Of a stretch of 35,537 nt of DNA, positions 4,191 to 17,614 are shown in pieces. Source of the stretch: Oceanispirochaeta sp. (GTDB lineage Bacteria; Spirochaetota; Spirochaetia; DSM-2461); the NCBI RefSeq assembly GCF_027859075.1, contig NZ_JAQIBL010000292.1, positions 1-35,537 of the forward strand, in the 5' to 3' direction. Made by a program: the position numbers and the translations under genes. Below the pieces are notes generated by a model. That model did not search any database. It was not told where the DNA came from and saw nothing but the letters and a program-made list of their open reading frames with translations. Within the stretch, counting starts at the first letter, position 1, and each line of letters starts with the position of its first letter.

Positions 4191-5750
4191 ATGAAAAGAT
4201 TATTACTAATGCCTTTGCTTATGGTTTTAACAATCGGGTTTTTGAGTGCAGCCGGAGGGCAGGATAATGCAAGTTCTTCTGACAGTTCTTCTGACGGTAA
4301 GGTAAAACTAGAAGTTTGGGCTGCCAAAGCGGCAGAACTGCAGGTAGATACTGAATCTCTTGCGAACTGGAAAGCGATTGAAGACGCCACCGGTGTAGAA
4401 CTAAACTGGGATTTAATAGGTACAGAAGTTAAAGATGAACAATTCAATCTTATAATGACCTCAGGCGATCTGCCGGATGTAATGGCATACTATGAAGGGA
4501 AATCAGGATTCAGCTCTGTCAATAGATTCGGAATAGAAGGAGCCTTTCTTCCTCTTGAAGACCTGATCAAAGAAAATGCCCCAAACCTCAAAGCGGCACT
4601 GCTGGATGATCCCAAGGTAAGAGAGACAATTCTGGCTTCCGACGGCAATATTTACTATATCCCCATGCTCTCCGCTTTGAATGCAGCAAGAGGCTGGTAC
4701 ATTCGTTATGACTGGCTGGAAGCAGTTGGAAAAGAAGTGCCCACCAATACTGAAGAGCTCTATGATGTTCTTGTGGCCTTTAAAAATGAAGATCCAAACG
4801 GCAACGGAGAAGCCGATGAAATACCCATGATCTTCAGGCGCCGCGGGGATGATGCCTTCTACAACCTGGGAGCCCTGGCATACGCTTTTGATGCCGATCC
4901 AGACTGGGTTATCAGAAATGGTAAGGTTGCATTCGGACCATCCGAAACACAGTACCTTGATTACCTGAACTATATTGCCAGGCTCTATAAAGAAGATCTT
5001 ATCGATGAAGAAATTCTGACCCGTGCAGGAAATCCCAGAAATGACTTGATGGGTAAAAATATGGCAGGGGCCATTCATGACTGGTTTGCCTCAACCGCAG
5101 GACTAAACGACTCTCTTGCTGATGAAATACCCGGTTTTAGCCTACGCCATATGGCTCCTCCTGTAGGAACAGTAAAAAAACCTTTCACCAGAATTCAGAT
5201 GAGTAAGGTTCGTGGAGACGGAGGATGGTCCATTTCCCATTCAAATCCAGATCCCGTTGCTACAATTAAAATGATGGACTTTCTGTTCAGTGCTGAAGGC
5301 AGCAAACTTGTGAACTTCGGTGTTGAAAATGATACATACACTGTTAAAGGTGGAAAGCCTGTTTACACCAAAAAAATCACATCTAACCCGGACACAGGAT
5401 TCCATGAATCACTGGTGACAAATGGAATGCAGTGGAAAATCGGTATGCAGCAGGACATCGAATACGAAAAACAGTTTGCCAATGTTATCGCAACAGAAGC
5501 CCGTATAGATTATATGGAAAACTACATCATTGAAGAGTTCCCTGTTCTCAGTTTTACAGAAGAAGAACAGATGGTGATCGATGATAAATACAGTCAAATT
5601 AAACTCTATTCAGCAGAAATGACTGCCAGAGCCCTGGTAGGAGCTATTGCTCCTTCTGATTTTCAAAAGACATTTAATGAGTTAAATAATATGAGCCTGA
5701 ATGAAGTCACAAAGATTTATCAGACTGCTTACGATAGAAAATTTAAATAA
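4191..5750 (+). CDS. Extracellular oligosaccharide-binding protein (LplA-like, family 1)
   Basis: 519 residues from the ATG at 4191, chosen because AAAAGGAG sits 7 bases upstream and a normal signal peptide follows (MKRLLLMPLLMVLTIGFLSA). An upstream in-frame ATG at 4167 lies in the hairpin loop and is unlikely. The body matches LplA-type solute-binding proteins that serve LplB/LplC permeases: VKDEQFNLIMTSGDLPDVM near residue 90, IPMLSALNAARGWYIRYDWL near 160 and NPNGNGEADEIP near 205. The last, a DPNGNGxxDEIP motif, is common in this subfamily. There is no lipobox Cys, so export via signal peptidase I into the periplasm is expected rather than lipid anchoring. It captures the oligosaccharide for the two upstream permeases. 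Confidence 0.92.
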   Translation: MKRLLLMPLLMVLTIGFLSAAGGQDNASSSDSSSDGKVKLEVWAAKAAELQVDTESLANWKAIEDATGVELNWDLIGTEVKDEQFNLIMTSGDLPDVMAYYEGKSGFSSVNRFGIEGAFLPLEDLIKENAPNLKAALLDDPKVRETILASDGNIYYIPMLSALNAARGWYIRYDWLEAVGKEVPTNTEELYDVLVAFKNEDPNGNGEADEIPMIFRRRGDDAFYNLGALAYAFDADPDWVIRNGKVAFGPSETQYLDYLNYIARLYKEDLIDEEILTRAGNPRNDLMGKNMAGAIHDWFASTAGLNDSLADEIPGFSLRHMAPPVGTVKKPFTRIQMSKVRGDGGWSISHSNPDPVATIKMMDFLFSAEGSKLVNFGVENDTYTVKGGKPVYTKKITSNPDTGFHESLVTNGMQWKIGMQQDIEYEKQFANVIATEARIDYMENYIIEEFPVLSFTEEEQMVIDDKYSQIKLYSAEMTARALVGAIAPSDFQKTFNELNNMSLNEVTKIYQTAYDRKFK

Positions 5751-10249: not shown

Positions 10250-10468
10250 AAAGGCGGAACGTTTCTGCTCCCCCTGGCTGAAAGCGAACTATCTGGAACT
10301 GTCAATGTAAGCCCTCTTCAATTTACTGAACAGGATTTCCAGGACAAACAGAATGACCTGCTTTCCCGATATACTGCGGATAAGAAATTCCTGATACTGG
10401 AGATCACCGAATCATCAGCAGCGGCTGCCCTAGTGTTATATAAAAAGAAGTTGTCTGTCCATTTTTAA
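10250..10468 (+). pseudogene. Start-less 72-codon open frame, in frame with the propeller gene
   Basis: Directly after the TAA at 10247-10249 the same frame continues for 72 codons to TAA at 10466-10468. The translation looks protein-like (for example FTEQDFQDKQNDLLSRYTAD, then KKFLILEITESSAAAALVLY), but it has no ATG, GTG or TTG start with a ribosome site. It may be the tail of a decayed gene, or of a formerly longer propeller protein cut by a nonsense mutation. I do not recognise the family. Intergenic chance cannot be excluded. Confidence 0.35.
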
Positions 10469-10474
10469 CTTATA

Positions 10475-10503
10475 TTTACATACTGTCATGACTCATCTAT
10501 CTT
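10475..10503 (+). promoter_or_regulatory. Sigma70 promoter of the chelate-import operon
   Basis: TTTACA (10475-10480), a 17-base spacer and TATCTT (10498-10503). The ATG at 10511 lies 7 bases after the -10 box, with no Shine-Dalgarno sequence, so transcription should begin at or next to the start codon. The spacer carries an 8-base palindrome GTCATGAC (10485-10492), a possible operator. There is no room for a cobalamin riboswitch. Confidence 0.55.
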
Positions 10504-10510
10504 ATTCTCT

Positions 10511-11614
10511 ATGAAAACAATTAAATTTATATTTACTCTCATCCTTATTTGTCAGTCTTTTTTATGGGGAAGCGGTTCCCAGGATACATCCGATTCGATT
10601 TATAAAGAAAAAACAGAGAGTCCCATTATAATTCATGACTCCCTGGGAAGAAGGGTAGTCCTCCCGGAAATTCCTCAAAGAATTGTTCAGACAGGATCCT
10701 CCGCCTTTCTTATGAATGATGCCATCTATTTGTTTCCTGAAGCAGGTGAACGTGTCGTAGCCATGTCAGACAGCAATCAGAAGCGGGGATATTTCCTTCC
10801 CGTCCTGGATCCGGAATATGATAAAAAGATCATACTGCCCCGTACGATTAATATCGAAGAGATAATGGCAGCATCTCCGGATCTGGTTCTAATGAAAGAT
10901 TTTCTATTCAGTAAATATGATAAGGAATTCCAGAAAGTAGGGATTCCTGTCATCTATCTGAACCTGGAATCGCCTGAAGCCTGGAATGCTGATCTTGAAA
11001 TTCTTGGACAAATATTCGGCAATCAGGAAAGAGCTGAAGAGCTGCAAAAACTCTTTTCTGATTACACAATGAAGGTTCTCCGTCCTCTTGAGAGGCTGAA
11101 ACCGGAAGAAAAGAAGAGAAACCTCATCCTCTATTACTCCGAGAAAGACGGAACCGGGGCATTCCAGGTCCCCCCTTTGTCCTATATCCAGACCAGAATG
11201 GTGGAAATGTCAGGGTCAGAACCCGTCTGGGTGAAAGCGGATCTGGGTAAAACATGGACAAAGGTTGGATTTGAACAGATTGCAGCCTGGGACCCTGATC
11301 AGATCTTTTTGATTTCCTATAGGAGTCCTGTCTCAGAAGTCCTGGAGATCATAGAGGACAGCCCGTATTGGCAGGAATTACGTGCCTATAAAGAAGGGGA
11401 GATACATCCTTTCCCCATGGATTTTCATAGCTGGGATCAACCGGATCCACGATGGCTGATCGGCCTGCAATGGATGGCGTCAATTTCACATCCAGAGTTT
11501 TTTCCAGATCTGGATATGAATAAAACAGCTGAAAAATTCTTTGCCGATTTCTATAACATCTCCGCAGAGGATTACCGCAGTAAGATCAATCCCGTCCTGG
11601 AAGGGATTGAATAG
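10511..11614 (+). CDS. FepB/BtuF-type substrate-binding protein (iron chelate, haem or cobalamin)
   Basis: 367 residues: an N-terminal export signal (KFIFTLILICQSFLWGSGSQ), then the two-lobed fold of helical-backbone binding proteins (PF01497). Recognisable parts are IIIHDSLGRRVVLPEIPQRI, the first strand; EEIMAASPDLVLMKD; IPVIYLNLESPEAW; and WDPDQIFLISYRSP near the C-terminus. It binds a metal chelate and docks to the FecCD-type permease encoded 16 bases downstream. Cys14 follows LILI, a poor lipobox, so lipid anchoring is doubtful; the WGSGSQD segment could instead be a signal peptidase I site. The substrate cannot be read from the sequence. Translation probably starts on a leaderless message. 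Confidence 0.88.
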   Translation: MKTIKFIFTLILICQSFLWGSGSQDTSDSIYKEKTESPIIIHDSLGRRVVLPEIPQRIVQTGSSAFLMNDAIYLFPEAGERVVAMSDSNQKRGYFLPVLDPEYDKKIILPRTINIEEIMAASPDLVLMKDFLFSKYDKEFQKVGIPVIYLNLESPEAWNADLEILGQIFGNQERAEELQKLFSDYTMKVLRPLERLKPEEKKRNLILYYSEKDGTGAFQVPPLSYIQTRMVEMSGSEPVWVKADLGKTWTKVGFEQIAAWDPDQIFLISYRSPVSEVLEIIEDSPYWQELRAYKEGEIHPFPMDFHSWDQPDPRWLIGLQWMASISHPEFFPDLDMNKTAEKFFADFYNISAEDYRSKINPVLEGIE

Positions 11615-11630
11615 ACTTGTGGAGAAAAAC

Positions 11631-12617
11631 ATGCCTGTCTGGATTAAGAACCTTCTGCTGATCTTATTATTGACAGTCCTGGTGGTCGGCTCCCTACTGC
11701 TGGGTCGTTATCCAGAGCCGGGTTTTATAAATTTCCAAAGCATTCGCACTGATCCCATAGCTCAGAATATCATTCTGAATCTACGGCTTCCCCGCATAAT
11801 AACAGCTGTGATTTTGGGAAGTACACTGGCGCTGACAGGACTGGTATTTCAGACAATTCTTGGAAACCCCCTTGTAGAAGCGGGATTTTTGGGAATTTCC
11901 CAGGGAGCAGCCTTCGGAGCGGCACTAATGATAATCCTTAATGTGAAAATTCCAATGGCCATCACCCTTTCGGCAGCAGCCTTCTCTTTAGCGGCCCTGG
12001 GGCTCACATGGTCCCTGGCCAGGGCGATCCGTTTCGGTGGCTGGATCATCCGTTTGATTCTGGCCGGAATAATCATCTCGGCGGTGTTCTCTTCGGGACT
12101 TGGGATTTTAAAATATCTGGCAGATCCGAGAAGCCAGCTTCAGGAGATAACCTTTTGGTTGATGGGAGGGCTGTCCGGGATAGGATGGACAGAACTGAAA
12201 TACATGATTCCCTTTACAATCCCGGCCCTTTTCCTGATTTTCCTGTTGCGCTGGCGGCTGAATCTTCTCTCCATGGGAGATCGGACAGCCCACTCAATGG
12301 GGATGTCTCCGGTTCTGGAGAAGAATTTTTTTCTGCTGATTGCGGTCCTTGCGACTGCAGCAGTGGTTTCCTATTGTGGTATTATCGGTTGGATCGGCCT
12401 GATCATTCCCCATATCGCCAGGAGAATATCCGGGAGCGATACATCGAAATCCGTTCCAACAGCAATTTTGACAGGGGGAATCTTTGCTCTTATTTGCGAT
12501 GATGCGGCACGAACGGTCAGCACAGGAGAAATTCCTCTTGGAATACTGACCTCCCTTTCAGGAGCCCTGATTTTTACTCTTCTTATGGTTTTTTCACCCA
12601 GAAGGAAGCATATATGA
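11631..12617 (+). CDS. FecCD-family ABC transporter permease
   Basis: 328 residues, roughly ten membrane helices, family PF01032. Diagnostic segments are LRLPRIITAVILGSTLALTG near the N-terminus, VFQTILGNPLVEAGFLGISQ, WLMGGLSGIGW, and CGIIGWIGLIIPHIAR followed by ICDDAARTVSTGEIPLGILT near the C-terminus. It forms the homodimeric channel for the chelate handed over by the upstream binding protein. The ATG at 11631 is chosen because GGAG lies 7 bases before it; a longer in-frame reading back into the previous gene is not supported. A damaged second copy of its C-terminal segment lies at 23959-24099. Confidence 0.93.
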   Translation: MPVWIKNLLLILLLTVLVVGSLLLGRYPEPGFINFQSIRTDPIAQNIILNLRLPRIITAVILGSTLALTGLVFQTILGNPLVEAGFLGISQGAAFGAALMIILNVKIPMAITLSAAAFSLAALGLTWSLARAIRFGGWIIRLILAGIIISAVFSSGLGILKYLADPRSQLQEITFWLMGGLSGIGWTELKYMIPFTIPALFLIFLLRWRLNLLSMGDRTAHSMGMSPVLEKNFFLLIAVLATAAVVSYCGIIGWIGLIIPHIARRISGSDTSKSVPTAILTGGIFALICDDAARTVSTGEIPLGILTSLSGALIFTLLMVFSPRRKHI

Positions 12618-12627
12618 AGAGGTTCGA

Positions 12628-13422
12628 ATGAGTCATATCATGGAATTCCGGAATGTCAGATTTAATTGGCACCGAAAAGATTCTCCCCTCTTCCCCTCTC
12701 TGGATATGCAGGTACCCGCAGGAATAGCAACGGCTCTATTAGGACCCAACGGAGCAGGGAAAACGACCATTATGGATCTGTCTCTAGGGTGGCGTACTCC
12801 ACAAAGCGGTGAGATCCTGCTCCAGGAATATCCCATCAATCAGTGGAGTCATAGAAAAAGAGGACAGTTTATGGCCCTGGTCCCTCAGGATGAAATTATT
12901 CAATTCGATTATTCTGTTCTGGAATATATTCTTCTGGGACGAAGCCCCTACCTCCCGCCCCTTGGAAATCCGGGCCAGGAGGATAGAAGAATCGCTCTGG
13001 AAGCTCTGGAGGAGGCAGGAATTGATCATCTTGTCAAAAGGAAAGTATCCCGTCTAAGCGGAGGAGAACGGCAGCTGGTTCTACTGGCAAGAGCACTGAC
13101 CCAGCAGCCTAAACTATTGCTCCTGGACGAACCGGCGTCCCACCTTGACCTGCATAACAGGGAAAAGATTCTTCATATATTGGAAAAACTGAAACAGAGG
13201 GGAATCAGCATTTTTTTTACATCCCACGATCCGGAACTTGTCATTCGTCTGGCTGACCATGCCATCCTTCTGAAAAATGGATCTGTGATTCAGTGTGGAC
13301 CTTCAGAGAGTATTCTGAATGATGAAAATCTGACAGACCTCTACAACATTCCGGTAAAAATCGGAACGATAGAGGGACAAAGAGTTCTGATATGGGGGCA
13401 ATCCCGAAGGGAACCCGGATGA
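12628..13422 (+). CDS. FepC/BtuD-type ABC transporter ATP-binding protein
   Basis: 264 residues. Walker A is GPNGAGKTT (39-47), the signature is LSGGERQ (143-149), Walker B LLLLDEPASHLD (163-174) and the switch His lies in FTSHDPE. It belongs to the iron-chelate/cobalamin ATPase family and energises the FecCD permease encoded 10 bases upstream. Its stop codon overlaps the start of the NTPase gene (ATGA at 13419-13422), so the two are translationally coupled. Confidence 0.94.
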   Translation: MSHIMEFRNVRFNWHRKDSPLFPSLDMQVPAGIATALLGPNGAGKTTIMDLSLGWRTPQSGEILLQEYPINQWSHRKRGQFMALVPQDEIIQFDYSVLEYILLGRSPYLPPLGNPGQEDRRIALEALEEAGIDHLVKRKVSRLSGGERQLVLLARALTQQPKLLLLDEPASHLDLHNREKILHILEKLKQRGISIFFTSHDPELVIRLADHAILLKNGSVIQCGPSESILNDENLTDLYNIPVKIGTIEGQRVLIWGQSRREPG

Positions 13423-13958
13423 ACCACTATATCCTTACAGGAAAAAGAGAAGCCGGAAAGACCAGGTTTTGTCAGATCCTCTTTCGTGCAGCAGTTGCAA
13501 GGAAAATGACTGTGGCAGGCATTCTGACCCTGACCCAGAGAGAGGAAGACTTAAGGGCAGTAGACCTTTACACCGAAGAGAGCCGCCGCTTAGCAATTTT
13601 CAACAGAACATCCTTCTCAGTGGAGGCTCCCGGAGATGATAAAACATCTCGCACAAAACAATGGACCTTTGATGCAAGTACTCTCTCATGGGGAAACCAA
13701 CGCATCAGAAAGGCCCCCTCTTCCAACTTATTTATCCTGGATGAAGCGGGAATCCTTGAATTTGAAAGGGATCAAGGATGGACAGCAGGAATGGCAAGGA
13801 TGGATTCTCAGACTGATCACTGCAGTGTTGTTGTCGTTCGCCCTGAACTGATCAATCAAGCCAGGAAACGATGGAGCAATTCTGAAATTCTTTATATAGA
13901 AGAGCAGAAAAACCTCCGGGAAGAAGAATTCATTTCCCAGATTCTTGGAACTTGTTAG
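13419..13958 (+). CDS. THEP1-like P-loop NTPase coupled to the chelate importer
   Basis: 179 residues from the ATG that overlaps the previous stop. Walker A is GKREAGKT (8-15). The Walker B-like FILDEAGILEFERDQGW (105-121) matches the DEIGpMEl motif of the nucleoside-triphosphatase THEP1/NTPase_1 family (PF03266); there Gly-Pro-Met is changed to Gly-Ile-Leu. The central stretch LTQREEDLRAVDLYTEESRR corresponds to the region in that family where substrate sugars or bases contact. Known members hydrolyse nucleoside triphosphates in vitro, with unclear cell roles; some are neighbours of metal or cofactor genes. Its last place in the operon and the ATGA overlap argue for a role with the importer, for example handling the imported cofactor, but this is inference. 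Confidence 0.8.
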   Translation: MNHYILTGKREAGKTRFCQILFRAAVARKMTVAGILTLTQREEDLRAVDLYTEESRRLAIFNRTSFSVEAPGDDKTSRTKQWTFDASTLSWGNQRIRKAPSSNLFILDEAGILEFERDQGWTAGMARMDSQTDHCSVVVVRPELINQARKRWSNSEILYIEEQKNLREEEFISQILGTC

Positions 13959-14086: not shown

Positions 14087-15211
14087 TCATTCTAAGTCTA
14101 AGTCCGCCAGGTATTCAGGCAGACTTCGGACTTCTTCTCCTGTAGGATAGGTCTTCTCTCTATCCGGATAGGCAACAAGTTGCACTTTCACTGCATCGGC
14201 AATATGAGAGGAAAAATGCCTGAATCCAGGAGACAAATCGGTGTTGGACCGTTTAACTTCATATGCTGCTGCGATGCGGTCATCCATAGACAGTACAAAA
14301 TCCAGCTCTTTACCGTCTTTTGTACGAAAATAGCAGAGACTACATCGTATACCAGCACCGTCTTCCAGAGAATGGGCATATTTTAAAAGAGAACATGCTG
14401 TTAGATTTTCAATTCTCATCCCTTCATCTTTAGCAAGCTGTCCCGTATCATAGAAATAATACTTAGGCTCTTTGAGAATAGACCGAGCAACATTTCTGTG
14501 CCATGGACGTACTGGAAAAATCACATACAGGTTCTCCAGAAGGAGGAGCCAGGATTTTACTGTTTTGGCATCTTTCTGCAAATCCCCGGCTAAAGAAGCA
14601 TAAGAAACAGGAGATCCAACCCGGCTCCGAAGCATTTCCAGCAATGTTTCAATGCTCTGAATATCTGTAATCGCAGTTAAGTCGATCATATCCTGTCTCA
14701 GTATGACATCCAGATGAGACCTCTTCCAACGTGCATAAAAACGACTGCTATTTTCCAGAAAAGGTTCCGGAAATCCACCGACTTTCAGAATACGCTCCAT
14801 TGCTTCACGAGGCTCCAAAAATGAGGAAGCTTCCTTAATATCCAATGGATGGAGGCGGTGGGAAAAATAGCGTCCTGCTAATGAATCTCCGACTTTACGG
14901 AATGCCTCCATGCGAGCGCTGCCGGTTACAACCAGAGCAGGAGGAATACCTTCGGTATCGTATATTCCTTTCAAAAACAGTTTCCATTGATCCATTTTGT
15001 GAAGTTCGTCAAAAATAATAAGCGGTTTTTTTCTGTCCCAAGTTTTCGATTTTAAAATAAGCCTTTGAGCAGGCTCGTCATAATTGAAATAATCGAACTC
15101 AGAACATAGCATTTTTGAAAGAATTGTTTTACCTGACTGCCGGGGCCCGGAAATCAGCACAATTTTTTTTTTCATATCTTCTAAGACTTGATTGGTAATA
15201 GAACGTTTCAT
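14087..15211 (-). CDS. AAA_14/DUF4143 family ATPase
   Basis: 374 residues. N-terminal AAA domain: Walker A GPRQSGKT (22-29), Walker B PLIIFDELHKM (63-73), a sensor-like VVTGSARMEAF, and LAGRYFSHRLHPLDIKEASS, a hallmark of this family. The C-terminal DUF4143 part ends with GKELDFVLSMDDR and AYEVKRS, an ELD...EVK pattern like the PD-(D/E)XK nuclease fold (about 302-320). Such proteins are numerous in bacteria and archaea and have no settled function. The ATG at 15211 has no ribosome site and lies 6 bases after a -10 box. The gene stands alone, convergent with the chelate-import operon. A second family member lies at 20829-21983. Confidence 0.88.
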   Translation of the reverse strand: MKRSITNQVLEDMKKKIVLISGPRQSGKTILSKMLCSEFDYFNYDEPAQRLILKSKTWDRKKPLIIFDELHKMDQWKLFLKGIYDTEGIPPALVVTGSARMEAFRKVGDSLAGRYFSHRLHPLDIKEASSFLEPREAMERILKVGGFPEPFLENSSRFYARWKRSHLDVILRQDMIDLTAITDIQSIETLLEMLRSRVGSPVSYASLAGDLQKDAKTVKSWLLLLENLYVIFPVRPWHRNVARSILKEPKYYFYDTGQLAKDEGMRIENLTACSLLKYAHSLEDGAGIRCSLCYFRTKDGKELDFVLSMDDRIAAAYEVKRSNTDLSPGFRHFSSHIADAVKVQLVAYPDREKTYPTGEEVRSLPEYLADLDLE

Positions 15212-15361: not shown

Positions 15362-17614
15362 TTAAGAGCTGTGATGTTTCCTCTTCATCAATATCTGATA
15401 AGTAAAATACACAAGGGCGAGGGCATTGTCATAAATAAGAGAATCTTCCTGCCCTGAAAGCCCCTTCATCCTCAAAGCCTCTTCTTTTACAGCTTTTTCA
15501 AGGTGTTCAAACGGGTTTAACAAAGAGATTTCATTTTCGGTGGACTCCTCCAGGGAACAAAGGCAGAATTCTCCTATCTGAGCCCATTTCCTATCACGAA
15601 ACCAGAGAACCAGGTTGCGGTGATTATTATAGAAAACGAGTAAATCTCTTGTTTGGTCCAGAAAGTCCCTCACACCATTGCCTTTACTCAGATTTTTAGA
15701 ACTGTACACAGCCGAAAGAGATGGGGTCGACTCAAACAGATCAGCGGCAAGAGAATAGTAGGTTTGGCGGAAAATACCATCACTGAAGCTGCCGGCAGCA
15801 GTAAATATTTTTTCGAACACCGAACCGGTGGTATCCATATTTTTCAGCGCGATGAGATAATTGATTTTATCCATGGCTTGTTCAGCCTTATCAGCCAGAA
15901 TACTAATTCGTTCTATCGATTGTACGTGACCGATTCTACCAAGTGATTTAGCCGCTGTAGAGCGGACCGCCGAATCGGGATCATCCAAAAGTGACAGCAG
16001 TACATGTTCCGAAGCCTCAGCTTCATAAGCTCCCAGGGCAAAGATGGCCTTGAGCTGATGGTAGGAGCCTGAGTCAGATGCTTCGCGAAGCAAATCCTCG
16101 AGAAGTTCGACCCGAGGATGGGAGAATAGAGATTTGATTGCCTCTCCTTTACTCGAAGACAGTGGAGATGAGATGATAGCCCTTAATTCTTCTGTGGCAA
16201 TGGGAGCATCATTCTGGCTGATGGACATTATAACAGTTCGTTTTTTTACTGGATCATCGATAGCCTTATACTTTCCAATATAACTGTAGGCTCTCAATCC
16301 CTCCAGGGAAAAGAATATTGCTGCTGTTTCTTTTGCAGAGAGACTTCCCTTATCGATCAATCTCAAACTATAGAAAATAAGAAGAAGACTTAAAACGAGA
16401 GCAAAGAAAAAGAGAAAGCTGAAATTGTTGGGGAGACCCATTGTGGAACTCTGCCCCCAGTCAATGAGAACCCCTCCAAGAATACCACTGAAGAAGGAGA
16501 AGAAAGCCATAACAAAATTGATCATTGAATTATAACTGAATGATTCATTCTCAGGCATGGAATTCACAAGGACCCGCGCGACCAGTACATTCGTTGCCAA
16601 AAGGAAAAAATTAGAAAAGAAACCCAGGATGAAATAAGCAAAAATAGGCAAACTGCGGCCATTTGAAAGAGGCAGCAACATCCAGATGATATAAGATAAA
16701 GAGAGGAGAATATTGACACCTATCAAGAGTGGTCGGCTACCGATTCTATCAGCGAAAGTTCGTCCAAAAAGACCTGCCATTATATTGGCCAAAGCGATAA
16801 CCAGTGTGTAGAGAAAGACAAAGTTGGCATCAAATCCTGCTTCCTTTCGAACAAATACAATTGTAAGTCCATTGACAACCATAACGGCAATGGACAACCA
16901 TTTCAGCATCAGAGGGAAACGCTTTTCTTTACTTGATAGAGATTCTTTGAATATGACAAAGAGATTCCTCCCTTTCTCATATTCAACAGTCTCTCGGCAG
17001 GTCACCTTTTTCAGTTGATACGCCGCGGAACTATTGAGAATGACGCCAATGATCTGCAGAAGTAATATGCCTGCCACACCGGTAAAAAACTGGATGGATG
17101 TAATCATAAAGCTTATCAGTTTGGAAACAACAGAAGCAGCCTGATTGACAATGTTCCCCTGAGCCAGGACTTCTCCTCTGTTTTGAGAAGTCGTGACCAT
17201 TTTGACAAGAGGATTCCAGATAACCACTCCGACCATTCTTGCAGCACAGAACAGGGTGTAAACAATCAGAATCAAGAGGACTGCCGGCCGGCCTTCAAGA
17301 AAGAACAACAATAAATACAACAGGACAATAAGTCCGCGGATAAACCAGGCTGTAGCCTGTACTGTAACCAGATTTTTTCCCGCCAGAAGTCTTGGAAGAG
17401 CCACCAGAATAAAGCCTGTAAGGAAAATTACAGAGGAGATATATCCCAATTCAATATTGGATGCGCCGAAGTGTATGGCCAGAAGATAGACAGGAGTTTC
17501 TCCCATAAAGTTGAAACCCATTCCGTTGAGGGCCTGGAACCTGTAAATTCGGCGTCGGCCATCTTTTCTCTCATCTTCCGAAAGATATTTTGTCAGCAAA
17601 TGAGAACTCCCCAT
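15362..17614 (-). CDS. MFS transporter fused to a C-terminal HEAT-repeat domain
   Basis: 750 residues in two parts. Residues about 25-420 form a major facilitator with about 12 membrane helices, including NIMAGLFGRTFADRIGSRP (276-294), the loop that carries the conserved GxxxDRxGxR motif. Residues about 450-740 are soluble; EHVLLSLLDDPDSAVRSTAA (536-555) followed by KSLGRIG is a textbook HEAT repeat, with less perfect copies on both sides. MFS proteins are normally 400-500 residues, so the tail is an added module, probably cytoplasmic and used for protein contacts. No substrate can be named. A -10 box lies 11 bases before the ATG and there is no ribosome site. The hybrid kinase is the upstream neighbour on the same strand, 97 bases away. 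Confidence 0.85.
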   Translation of the reverse strand: MGSSHLLTKYLSEDERKDGRRRIYRFQALNGMGFNFMGETPVYLLAIHFGASNIELGYISSVIFLTGFILVALPRLLAGKNLVTVQATAWFIRGLIVLLYLLLFFLEGRPAVLLILIVYTLFCAARMVGVVIWNPLVKMVTTSQNRGEVLAQGNIVNQAASVVSKLISFMITSIQFFTGVAGILLLQIIGVILNSSAAYQLKKVTCRETVEYEKGRNLFVIFKESLSSKEKRFPLMLKWLSIAVMVVNGLTIVFVRKEAGFDANFVFLYTLVIALANIMAGLFGRTFADRIGSRPLLIGVNILLSLSYIIWMLLPLSNGRSLPIFAYFILGFFSNFFLLATNVLVARVLVNSMPENESFSYNSMINFVMAFFSFFSGILGGVLIDWGQSSTMGLPNNFSFLFFFALVLSLLLIFYSLRLIDKGSLSAKETAAIFFSLEGLRAYSYIGKYKAIDDPVKKRTVIMSISQNDAPIATEELRAIISSPLSSSKGEAIKSLFSHPRVELLEDLLREASDSGSYHQLKAIFALGAYEAEASEHVLLSLLDDPDSAVRSTAAKSLGRIGHVQSIERISILADKAEQAMDKINYLIALKNMDTTGSVFEKIFTAAGSFSDGIFRQTYYSLAADLFESTPSLSAVYSSKNLSKGNGVRDFLDQTRDLLVFYNNHRNLVLWFRDRKWAQIGEFCLCSLEESTENEISLLNPFEHLEKAVKEEALRMKGLSGQEDSLIYDNALALVYFTYQILMKRKHHSS

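Follow-up and report, generated by a model that had tools for sequence, protein, structure and literature searches.

A THEP1-type NTPase gene overlapping a FecCD-type importer operon and its likely connection to molybdenum cofactor metabolism

The THEP1/NTPCR proteins (PF03266; structures 1YE8 and 2I3B) are NTPases that carry Walker A and DE motifs, and to our knowledge the role of the THEP1, or NTPase_1, family is unsettled. Among the FecCD-type importers, MolBCA (HI1470-1472) transports molybdate, and we know of no NTPase gene at the HI1470-1472 locus. MobB is a P-loop NTPase that serves as an adaptor in the biosynthesis of MGD, and the gene place overlapping MobA is often taken by MobB. A further set of loci, those encoding YqeB/YqeC, belongs to selenium-dependent molybdenum hydroxylases (Haft and Self 2008, PMC2276186). 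Peng et al. 2018 (PMC6147048) describe "orphan molybdoprotein" organisms, which have molybdenum enzymes and an incomplete molybdenum cofactor (Moco) pathway, often with no known molybdenum transporter. In this report, a 35,537-nucleotide stretch of DNA from Oceanispirochaeta sp. (the window), in which a THEP1-type NTPase follows a FecCD-type importer, is compared with these systems.

The open reading frames and Pfam matches of the window outline an operon of four head-to-tail genes on the + strand that encode a binding protein, a permease, an ATPase, and the NTPase. The periplasmic binding protein (10511..11614; Peripla_BP_2, 75 bits) is followed by the FecCD-type permease (11541..12617; 242 bits), whose real start is probably nearer 11619 than 11541, and by the importer ATPase of the FepC/BtuD type (12628..13422; ABC_tran, 102 bits). 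The NTPase gene (13419..13958, ATG to stop) encodes a protein of 179 aa. At the junction, which reads GGATGAACC, the NTPase ATG and the ATPase TGA have two bases in common, giving the overlap ATGA at 13419..13422. An alternative in-frame ATG at 13392 would yield a 188-aa product; 13419 is favoured because conservation sets in just past it and because the overlap recurs in relatives. A preliminary description of this DNA had placed the NTPase start inside the stop codon of a FepC-type ATPase gene, behind a FepB-FecCD-FepC set, and both statements agree with the direct reading and the family matches. The importer reaches no curated NCBIfam cut-off and is placed in the generic FecCD class. A 30-base leader motif, TTGTC[A/T]GTCCATTTTT-N6-TATTTACA (10451..10480, + strand), lies 30 bases 5' of the binding-protein start and is present ahead of the binding-protein gene in three species of the genus. 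Its exact 15-base core occurs in 3 of 198 loci (L042 and L141 are one contig), and among the 198 loci the motif was not seen outside the genus. The leader may be a promoter/operator-like element. On the opposite strand, an AAA_14/DUF4143 protein is encoded next to the NTPase (14087-15211), followed by an MFS protein with HEAT repeats (15362-17614).

The window NTPase matches PF03266 (NTPase_1) with 27.8 bits, above the curated cut-off of 23.9, and stays below the cut-off of the NCBIfam equivalog PRK13695 (17.4 of 156 bits). Its predicted model (pLDDT 90.9) aligns with the THEP1 of Aquifex (1ye8) at Z 16.0 (rmsd 2.8, 156 residues aligned) and with human NTPCR (2i3b) at Z 14.3, while unrelated folds score lower (Z 8.9 or less), in accord with the THEP1-like identity first proposed for it. 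The Walker A motif is GKREAGKT and the sequence DEAGILEF occupies residues 108-115; G13, K14, D108, and E109 are invariant in an alignment of 19 sequences, and the protein may hydrolyze NTP. The changed motif had been taken as the mark of a distinct subfamily. The tree, the alignment, and the fold support such a subfamily within the THEP1 fold, and the motif itself proves to be a variant at the level of the genus, as DEAGILEF is limited to same-genus sequences and most of the subfamily has DELGPLE. No match to MobB (TIGR00176 / PF03205) at E<=1 or to YqeC (TIGR03172) was found for the window NTPase, and the similarity of its model to the MobB fold (4oyh) is middling (Z 7.5, rmsd 3.6, 93 aligned).

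The NTPases of the window, of two same-genus genomes (G002 and G005), and of locus L082 were aligned into a profile, and a single scan of 84,980 species with this profile returned 18 loci. Two of them are spirochaete contigs that were already known, and the others belong to Anaerolineae and other Chloroflexota, Bipolaricaulota/Acetothermia, Caldisericales, and Azonexus, with several phyla represented. A FecCD permease and ATPase lie immediately 5' of the NTPase and on the same strand in 16 of the 18, of which 14 are new, as L141 and L145 are the spirochaete contigs already surveyed (G005 and G185). In most of the scan loci, and across several phyla, the ATPase stop overlaps the NTPase start (ATGA or GTGA), and in L082, which is the same contig as L145, the importer ATPase and the NTPase form a single fused protein. 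The two exceptions are L142, which has no importer, and L146, where FecCD is replaced by an ECF-type set consisting of fused ATPases (525 aa), a CbiQ-type protein, and a 202-aa protein for which no family match was found. No phage-borne relative was confirmed among 116 candidate stretches. The 16 loci, the overlap, and the fusion identify the NTPase as a dedicated partner of the FecCD importer, and the pairing is not incidental. Further apparent fusions in L101, L092, L134, L088, and L149 were rejected, because their N-terminal parts are translations rich in arginine and proline that match no family; a supposed ATPase-NTPase fusion in L149 was also discarded, as the ATPase gene is separate and in another frame.

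Within the spirochaetes, the window protein has matches in 10 of the genomes when 98 near relatives are searched (its own genome included), and the NTPase family search matches 198 of the 394 genomes of the class. The neighbourhood survey covered the window and 100 of these 198 genomes (nearest kin, then best scores), leaving aside weaker matches, some of which are likely chance P-loops. A FecCD importer within ~6 kb of the NTPase was recorded at 22 of 101 spirochaete loci (window included); the importer is present at 21 of them, and L066 has at least the binding protein before its contig ends. Eleven of the 22 pairs are on the same strand and 11 are convergent. Around the other 79 loci no FecCD importer is present in the stretch covered, which in some cases is cut short by a contig end. 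The question raised in the preliminary description, whether the NTPase always stands beside FecCD-type importers, therefore has two answers: nearly always in the subfamily of the window, and in a minority of loci in the family as a whole. When the presence of the importer is mapped onto a tree of 99 NTPase domains, 6 changes are needed, against a shuffled mean of 20 (none of 500 shuffles was as low), and the window NTPase clusters with those of G002 and G005 and with L082 (support 100/98). Other neighbours were also observed. A YhhQ/Vut_1 transporter gene is near a related NTPase in 28 loci (L108, L058, L087, and 25 others), and MoaA and MoeA are both missing in 21 of these 28 genomes. In family f23 (L073, L077, L083, L095), the NTPase is convergent with the FecCD importer and separated from it by PfkB- and PsuG-like (Indigoidine_A, pseudouridine-glycosidase-like) genes, which are not molybdenum genes. 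L099:5663-6814 and L115:5703-6875, each next to a FecCD importer, encode a divergent NTPase joined in one protein to a class I methyltransferase-like domain; methyltransferase genes are separate in L065, L067, and L078.

The best solved relative of the permease is MolB (HI1471), with 178 bits compared to 160 for HmuU, and in a tree with long branches the NTPase-linked permeases group with MolB, apart from BtuC, HmuU, BhuU, and FhuB (SH-aLRT 93). The permease and ATPase miss the NCBIfam equivalog cut-offs for vitamin B12, Fe-dicitrate, hydroxamate, and F420-0 importers (for example, BtuC with 172 of 334 bits and the F420-0 ATPase with 192 of 372 bits). The binding protein belongs to a family that includes iron-chelate binders. 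MolA is its second match by single sequence, fourth by profile, and third by fold; the nearest folds to its model (pLDDT 86) are 4ovk, 4mo9, and MolA (3psa), and 4ovk and 4hn9 are nearer to it than MolA is.

The window was scanned against Rfam together with 48 loci, among which two contigs each appear twice. The Moco riboswitch RF01055 was found above the cut-off 5' of the operon in three Bipolaricaulota loci (L143, L147, L153), in Anaerolinea (L148), and in the spirochaete G266 (L076), and in L146 it lies directly 5' of the NTPase with its ECF-type importer. This amounts to 6 of 49 sources in about four lineages. No Moco riboswitch was detected in the window, even at a lax threshold, or in its genus, and none of the 49 sources gave a cobalamin riboswitch. 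The P3 hairpin, which Regulski et al. (PMC2408646) tie to Moco and not to the tungsten cofactor, can form in the riboswitch alignments of L143, L147, and L076. Moco genes also adjoin the NTPase. In L149, which has a TonB receptor gene 5' of the operon, MobA (TIGR02665, 222 bits, cut-off 152) overlaps the NTPase stop. L065 and L067 between them have SelD, TusA, Se_S_carrier, XdhC, and a ModE-like domain (63 bits, under its cut-off of 98.5), and by clustering L078 has the gene order of L065. In L087 and its kin, MobB and a related NTPase are divergently oriented. In L148 the Moco riboswitch is separated from the permease by the gene for a DUF364/DUF4213 "heavy-metal chelation" protein (4396-5190), in the position that a binding protein has elsewhere.

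The NTPase also co-occurs with molybdenum enzymes. In the 394 spirochaete genomes, MoCoBD_2 (E<=1e-20) is present in 120 of 126 with NTPase_1 (E<=1e-6) and in 103 of 268 without, with the window genome on the NTPase-absent side at this cut (8.6e-6); the direction was the same at all four NTPase cuts tried. Counted by family, a coarse correction for kinship, MoCoBD_2 occurs in 22 of 24 families with the NTPase and in 10 of 21 without (p 0.002). The six exceptions include three genomes (G059, G167, G255) that carry the highest-scoring, classical NTPase forms. Among 16 non-spirochaete carriers, 13 have MoCoBD_2, three have none that was found, and 11 have MoeA. Of the three candidates named in the preliminary description (cobalamin, molybdopterin, and iron), molybdopterin is the one that fits the riboswitches, the MobA and ModE-like neighbours, and the co-occurrence with molybdenum hydroxylases. 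That description also suggested an action on a nucleotide-linked form of the imported cofactor, which is at present a conjecture.

Neither MoaA nor MoeA is found in 127 of 223 spirochaete genomes with molybdenum hydroxylases (xanthine-dehydrogenase-type), a count that includes the window genome (G000) only through a contig break. Searches for Moco genes used 26 and 53 chosen genomes; MoaC was tested in 25 of the genomes lacking MoaA and MoeA, and only G000 has a (cut) copy. The closed genomes G201, G236, G276, G282, and G392 are among those with neither MoaA nor MoeA, a group that includes closed genomes without MoaC as well. MoaA, MoaC, and MoeA are all unmatched in 11 of the 22 spirochaete genomes with the FecCD-NTPase pair, excluding G000 with its MoaC fragment; 10 of the 11 have MoCoBD_2 enzymes, and in the remaining one, G266 (99% complete), the contig that carries the FecCD-NTPase operon with its Moco riboswitch also has an operon for a DmsA-type enzyme. 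The NTPase occurs in 76 of 130 molybdenum-hydroxylase genomes without MoaA and in 44 of 93 with it, which is no clear difference. The FecCD-NTPase pair is not commoner in the MoaA/MoeA-less group (11 of 127, G000 included, vs 10 of 96, p 0.65), and cofactor import as a statistical trait of Moco-less genomes was set aside as unsupported.

The window genome itself has four MoCoBD_2 matches (E<=1e-20) and genes of the AFOR and DMSO-reductase types. One end of contig G000:C157 (length 3411) carries a MoaC fragment with a MogA-type gene beside it. G002, of the same genus, has these genes in the same order, with MoaA and MoeA coming next, and encodes a TupA-like tungstate binding protein beside its Moco genes. 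The missing MoaA and MoeA had suggested that the species is a Moco auxotroph, which was rejected on the basis of this fragment and gene order; it presumably makes Moco from a cluster that is broken by the contig end. Plain molybdate or tungstate is a possible cargo here, although with the TupA-like protein already in the genus there is no obvious need for another oxyanion importer.

The riboswitches, the MobA, XdhC, SelD, and MobB neighbours, the MolB-near permease, and the co-occurrence with MoCoBD_2 point to a molybdenum context. We consider it rather probable that the NTPase is a coupled fourth component of a FecCD/MolB-type importer in molybdenum (Moco) metabolism and helps to load the metal or cofactor into the maturation of molybdenum enzymes. 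The periplasmic protein would bind the cargo and the permease would pass it at the expense of the ABC ATPase, while the NTPase, translated in step, would sit or dock at the cytoplasmic side of the importer. There it may take up the molybdenum species (molybdate, or molybdenum bound to a pterin) through NTP binding or hydrolysis, in a service comparable to that of MobB for MobA, and on hydrolysis release it to partners of the MobA/MocA or XdhC type. This hand-over would end in the completion of Moco and the loading of molybdenum hydroxylases. The NTPase would thus be MobB-like in manner, though it is no MobB by sequence. Several observations weigh against this reading: the window genus has no Moco riboswitch, and its binding protein is nearer 4ovk and 4hn9 than MolA; 79 of 101 loci have no importer in the stretch covered, half of the 22 pairs are convergent, three of 16 non-spirochaete carriers show no MoCoBD_2, and the f23 genes intervene; and the genus has the TupA-like protein, the kinship correction is coarse, and the window protein has no MobB match.

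The permease nearest MolB, the presence of MolA among the best binding-protein folds, and MoeA in 11 of 16 non-spirochaete carriers, which could use molybdate, are also what would be expected of a plain MolBCA-like importer of molybdate or tungstate, whose NTPase would only tune or stabilize it, for instance as a regulator of the ABC ATPase to which it is fused in L082/L145. This account is somewhat unlikely, as related NTPases occur without a FecCD importer in molybdenum-hydroxylase genomes, beside MobB, or with an ECF importer; the L149 NTPase is overlapped by MobA; a tungstate-type importer is already in the genus; and its use is hard to see in genomes without detected Moco-synthesis genes. 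Those same genomes (11 of the 22 with the pair, 10 of them with MoCoBD_2) would instead be explained if the cargo were preformed Moco or molybdopterin, with the NTPase receiving it or activating it ahead of nucleotide attachment and insertion. G266, with a Moco-sensing RNA on the importer, a DmsA-type operon, and no Moco-synthesis gene found, fits this idea, as do L146, where a Moco riboswitch accompanies an ECF importer, and the TonB receptor gene of L149. We regard it as unlikely, since the pair is not enriched in MoaA/MoeA-less genomes, the window species probably makes its own Moco, and free Moco is oxygen-labile. Its wider form, a Moco/molybdopterin uptake system by which bacteria that have molybdenum enzymes but no Moco synthesis live on the cofactor of others, is likewise doubtful. 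The transporters would be of the FecCD, the ECF, and perhaps the YhhQ type, and in each case the THEP1-like NTPase would accept the cofactor inside the cell; if true, this would answer both the role of THEP1-type NTPases here and the source of the cofactor in orphan molybdoprotein organisms. An ordinary importer of iron, haem, or corrinoid, with molybdenum signals that belong to the relatives only and the NTPase as a passenger, would suit the generic FecCD class, the unmet NCBIfam cut-offs, and the resemblance of the binding protein to iron-chelate binders. The operon and overlap are kept across phyla, however, and Moco riboswitches occur in about four lineages whereas the scans gave no cobalamin riboswitch, making this explanation improbable.

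With an importer operon that extends over several phyla and is accompanied by Moco riboswitches, the widespread THEP1-type NTPases (archaea, bacteria, and human NTPCR) gain a role that can be directly tested. The module also bears on the orphan molybdoprotein puzzle, given the 127 spirochaete genomes noted above. Its parts are known (a THEP1 fold and a FecCD importer), and no earlier description of the conserved combination was found. The literature searched, in which subscription papers were mostly not covered and PMC2408646, PMC3766115, and PMC6147048 were represented in part, yielded neither a link between THEP1-type NTPases and FecCD importers nor one between the Moco riboswitch and FecCD.

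Compared with MolBCA, the window importer has a permease nearest MolB and a binding protein with MolA among its top folds, although the binding protein has diverged from its MolBCA counterpart. L065 and L067, where related NTPases have SelD and XdhC-type genes next to them, recall the YqeB/YqeC loci of selenium-dependent molybdenum hydroxylases (PMC2276186), whereas the NTPase here is of the NTPase_1 type without a YqeC match. With MobB the window NTPase has in common that it is a P-loop NTPase with relatives beside Moco genes, including the one overlapping MobA in L149, and it differs in having no MobB family match and a fold of only middling similarity. It is most like THEP1/NTPCR, with which it shares the fold, the Walker A and DE motifs, and the size; the identity in the structural alignment is 14-16%, and the window NTPase is set apart by being fixed in an importer operon.
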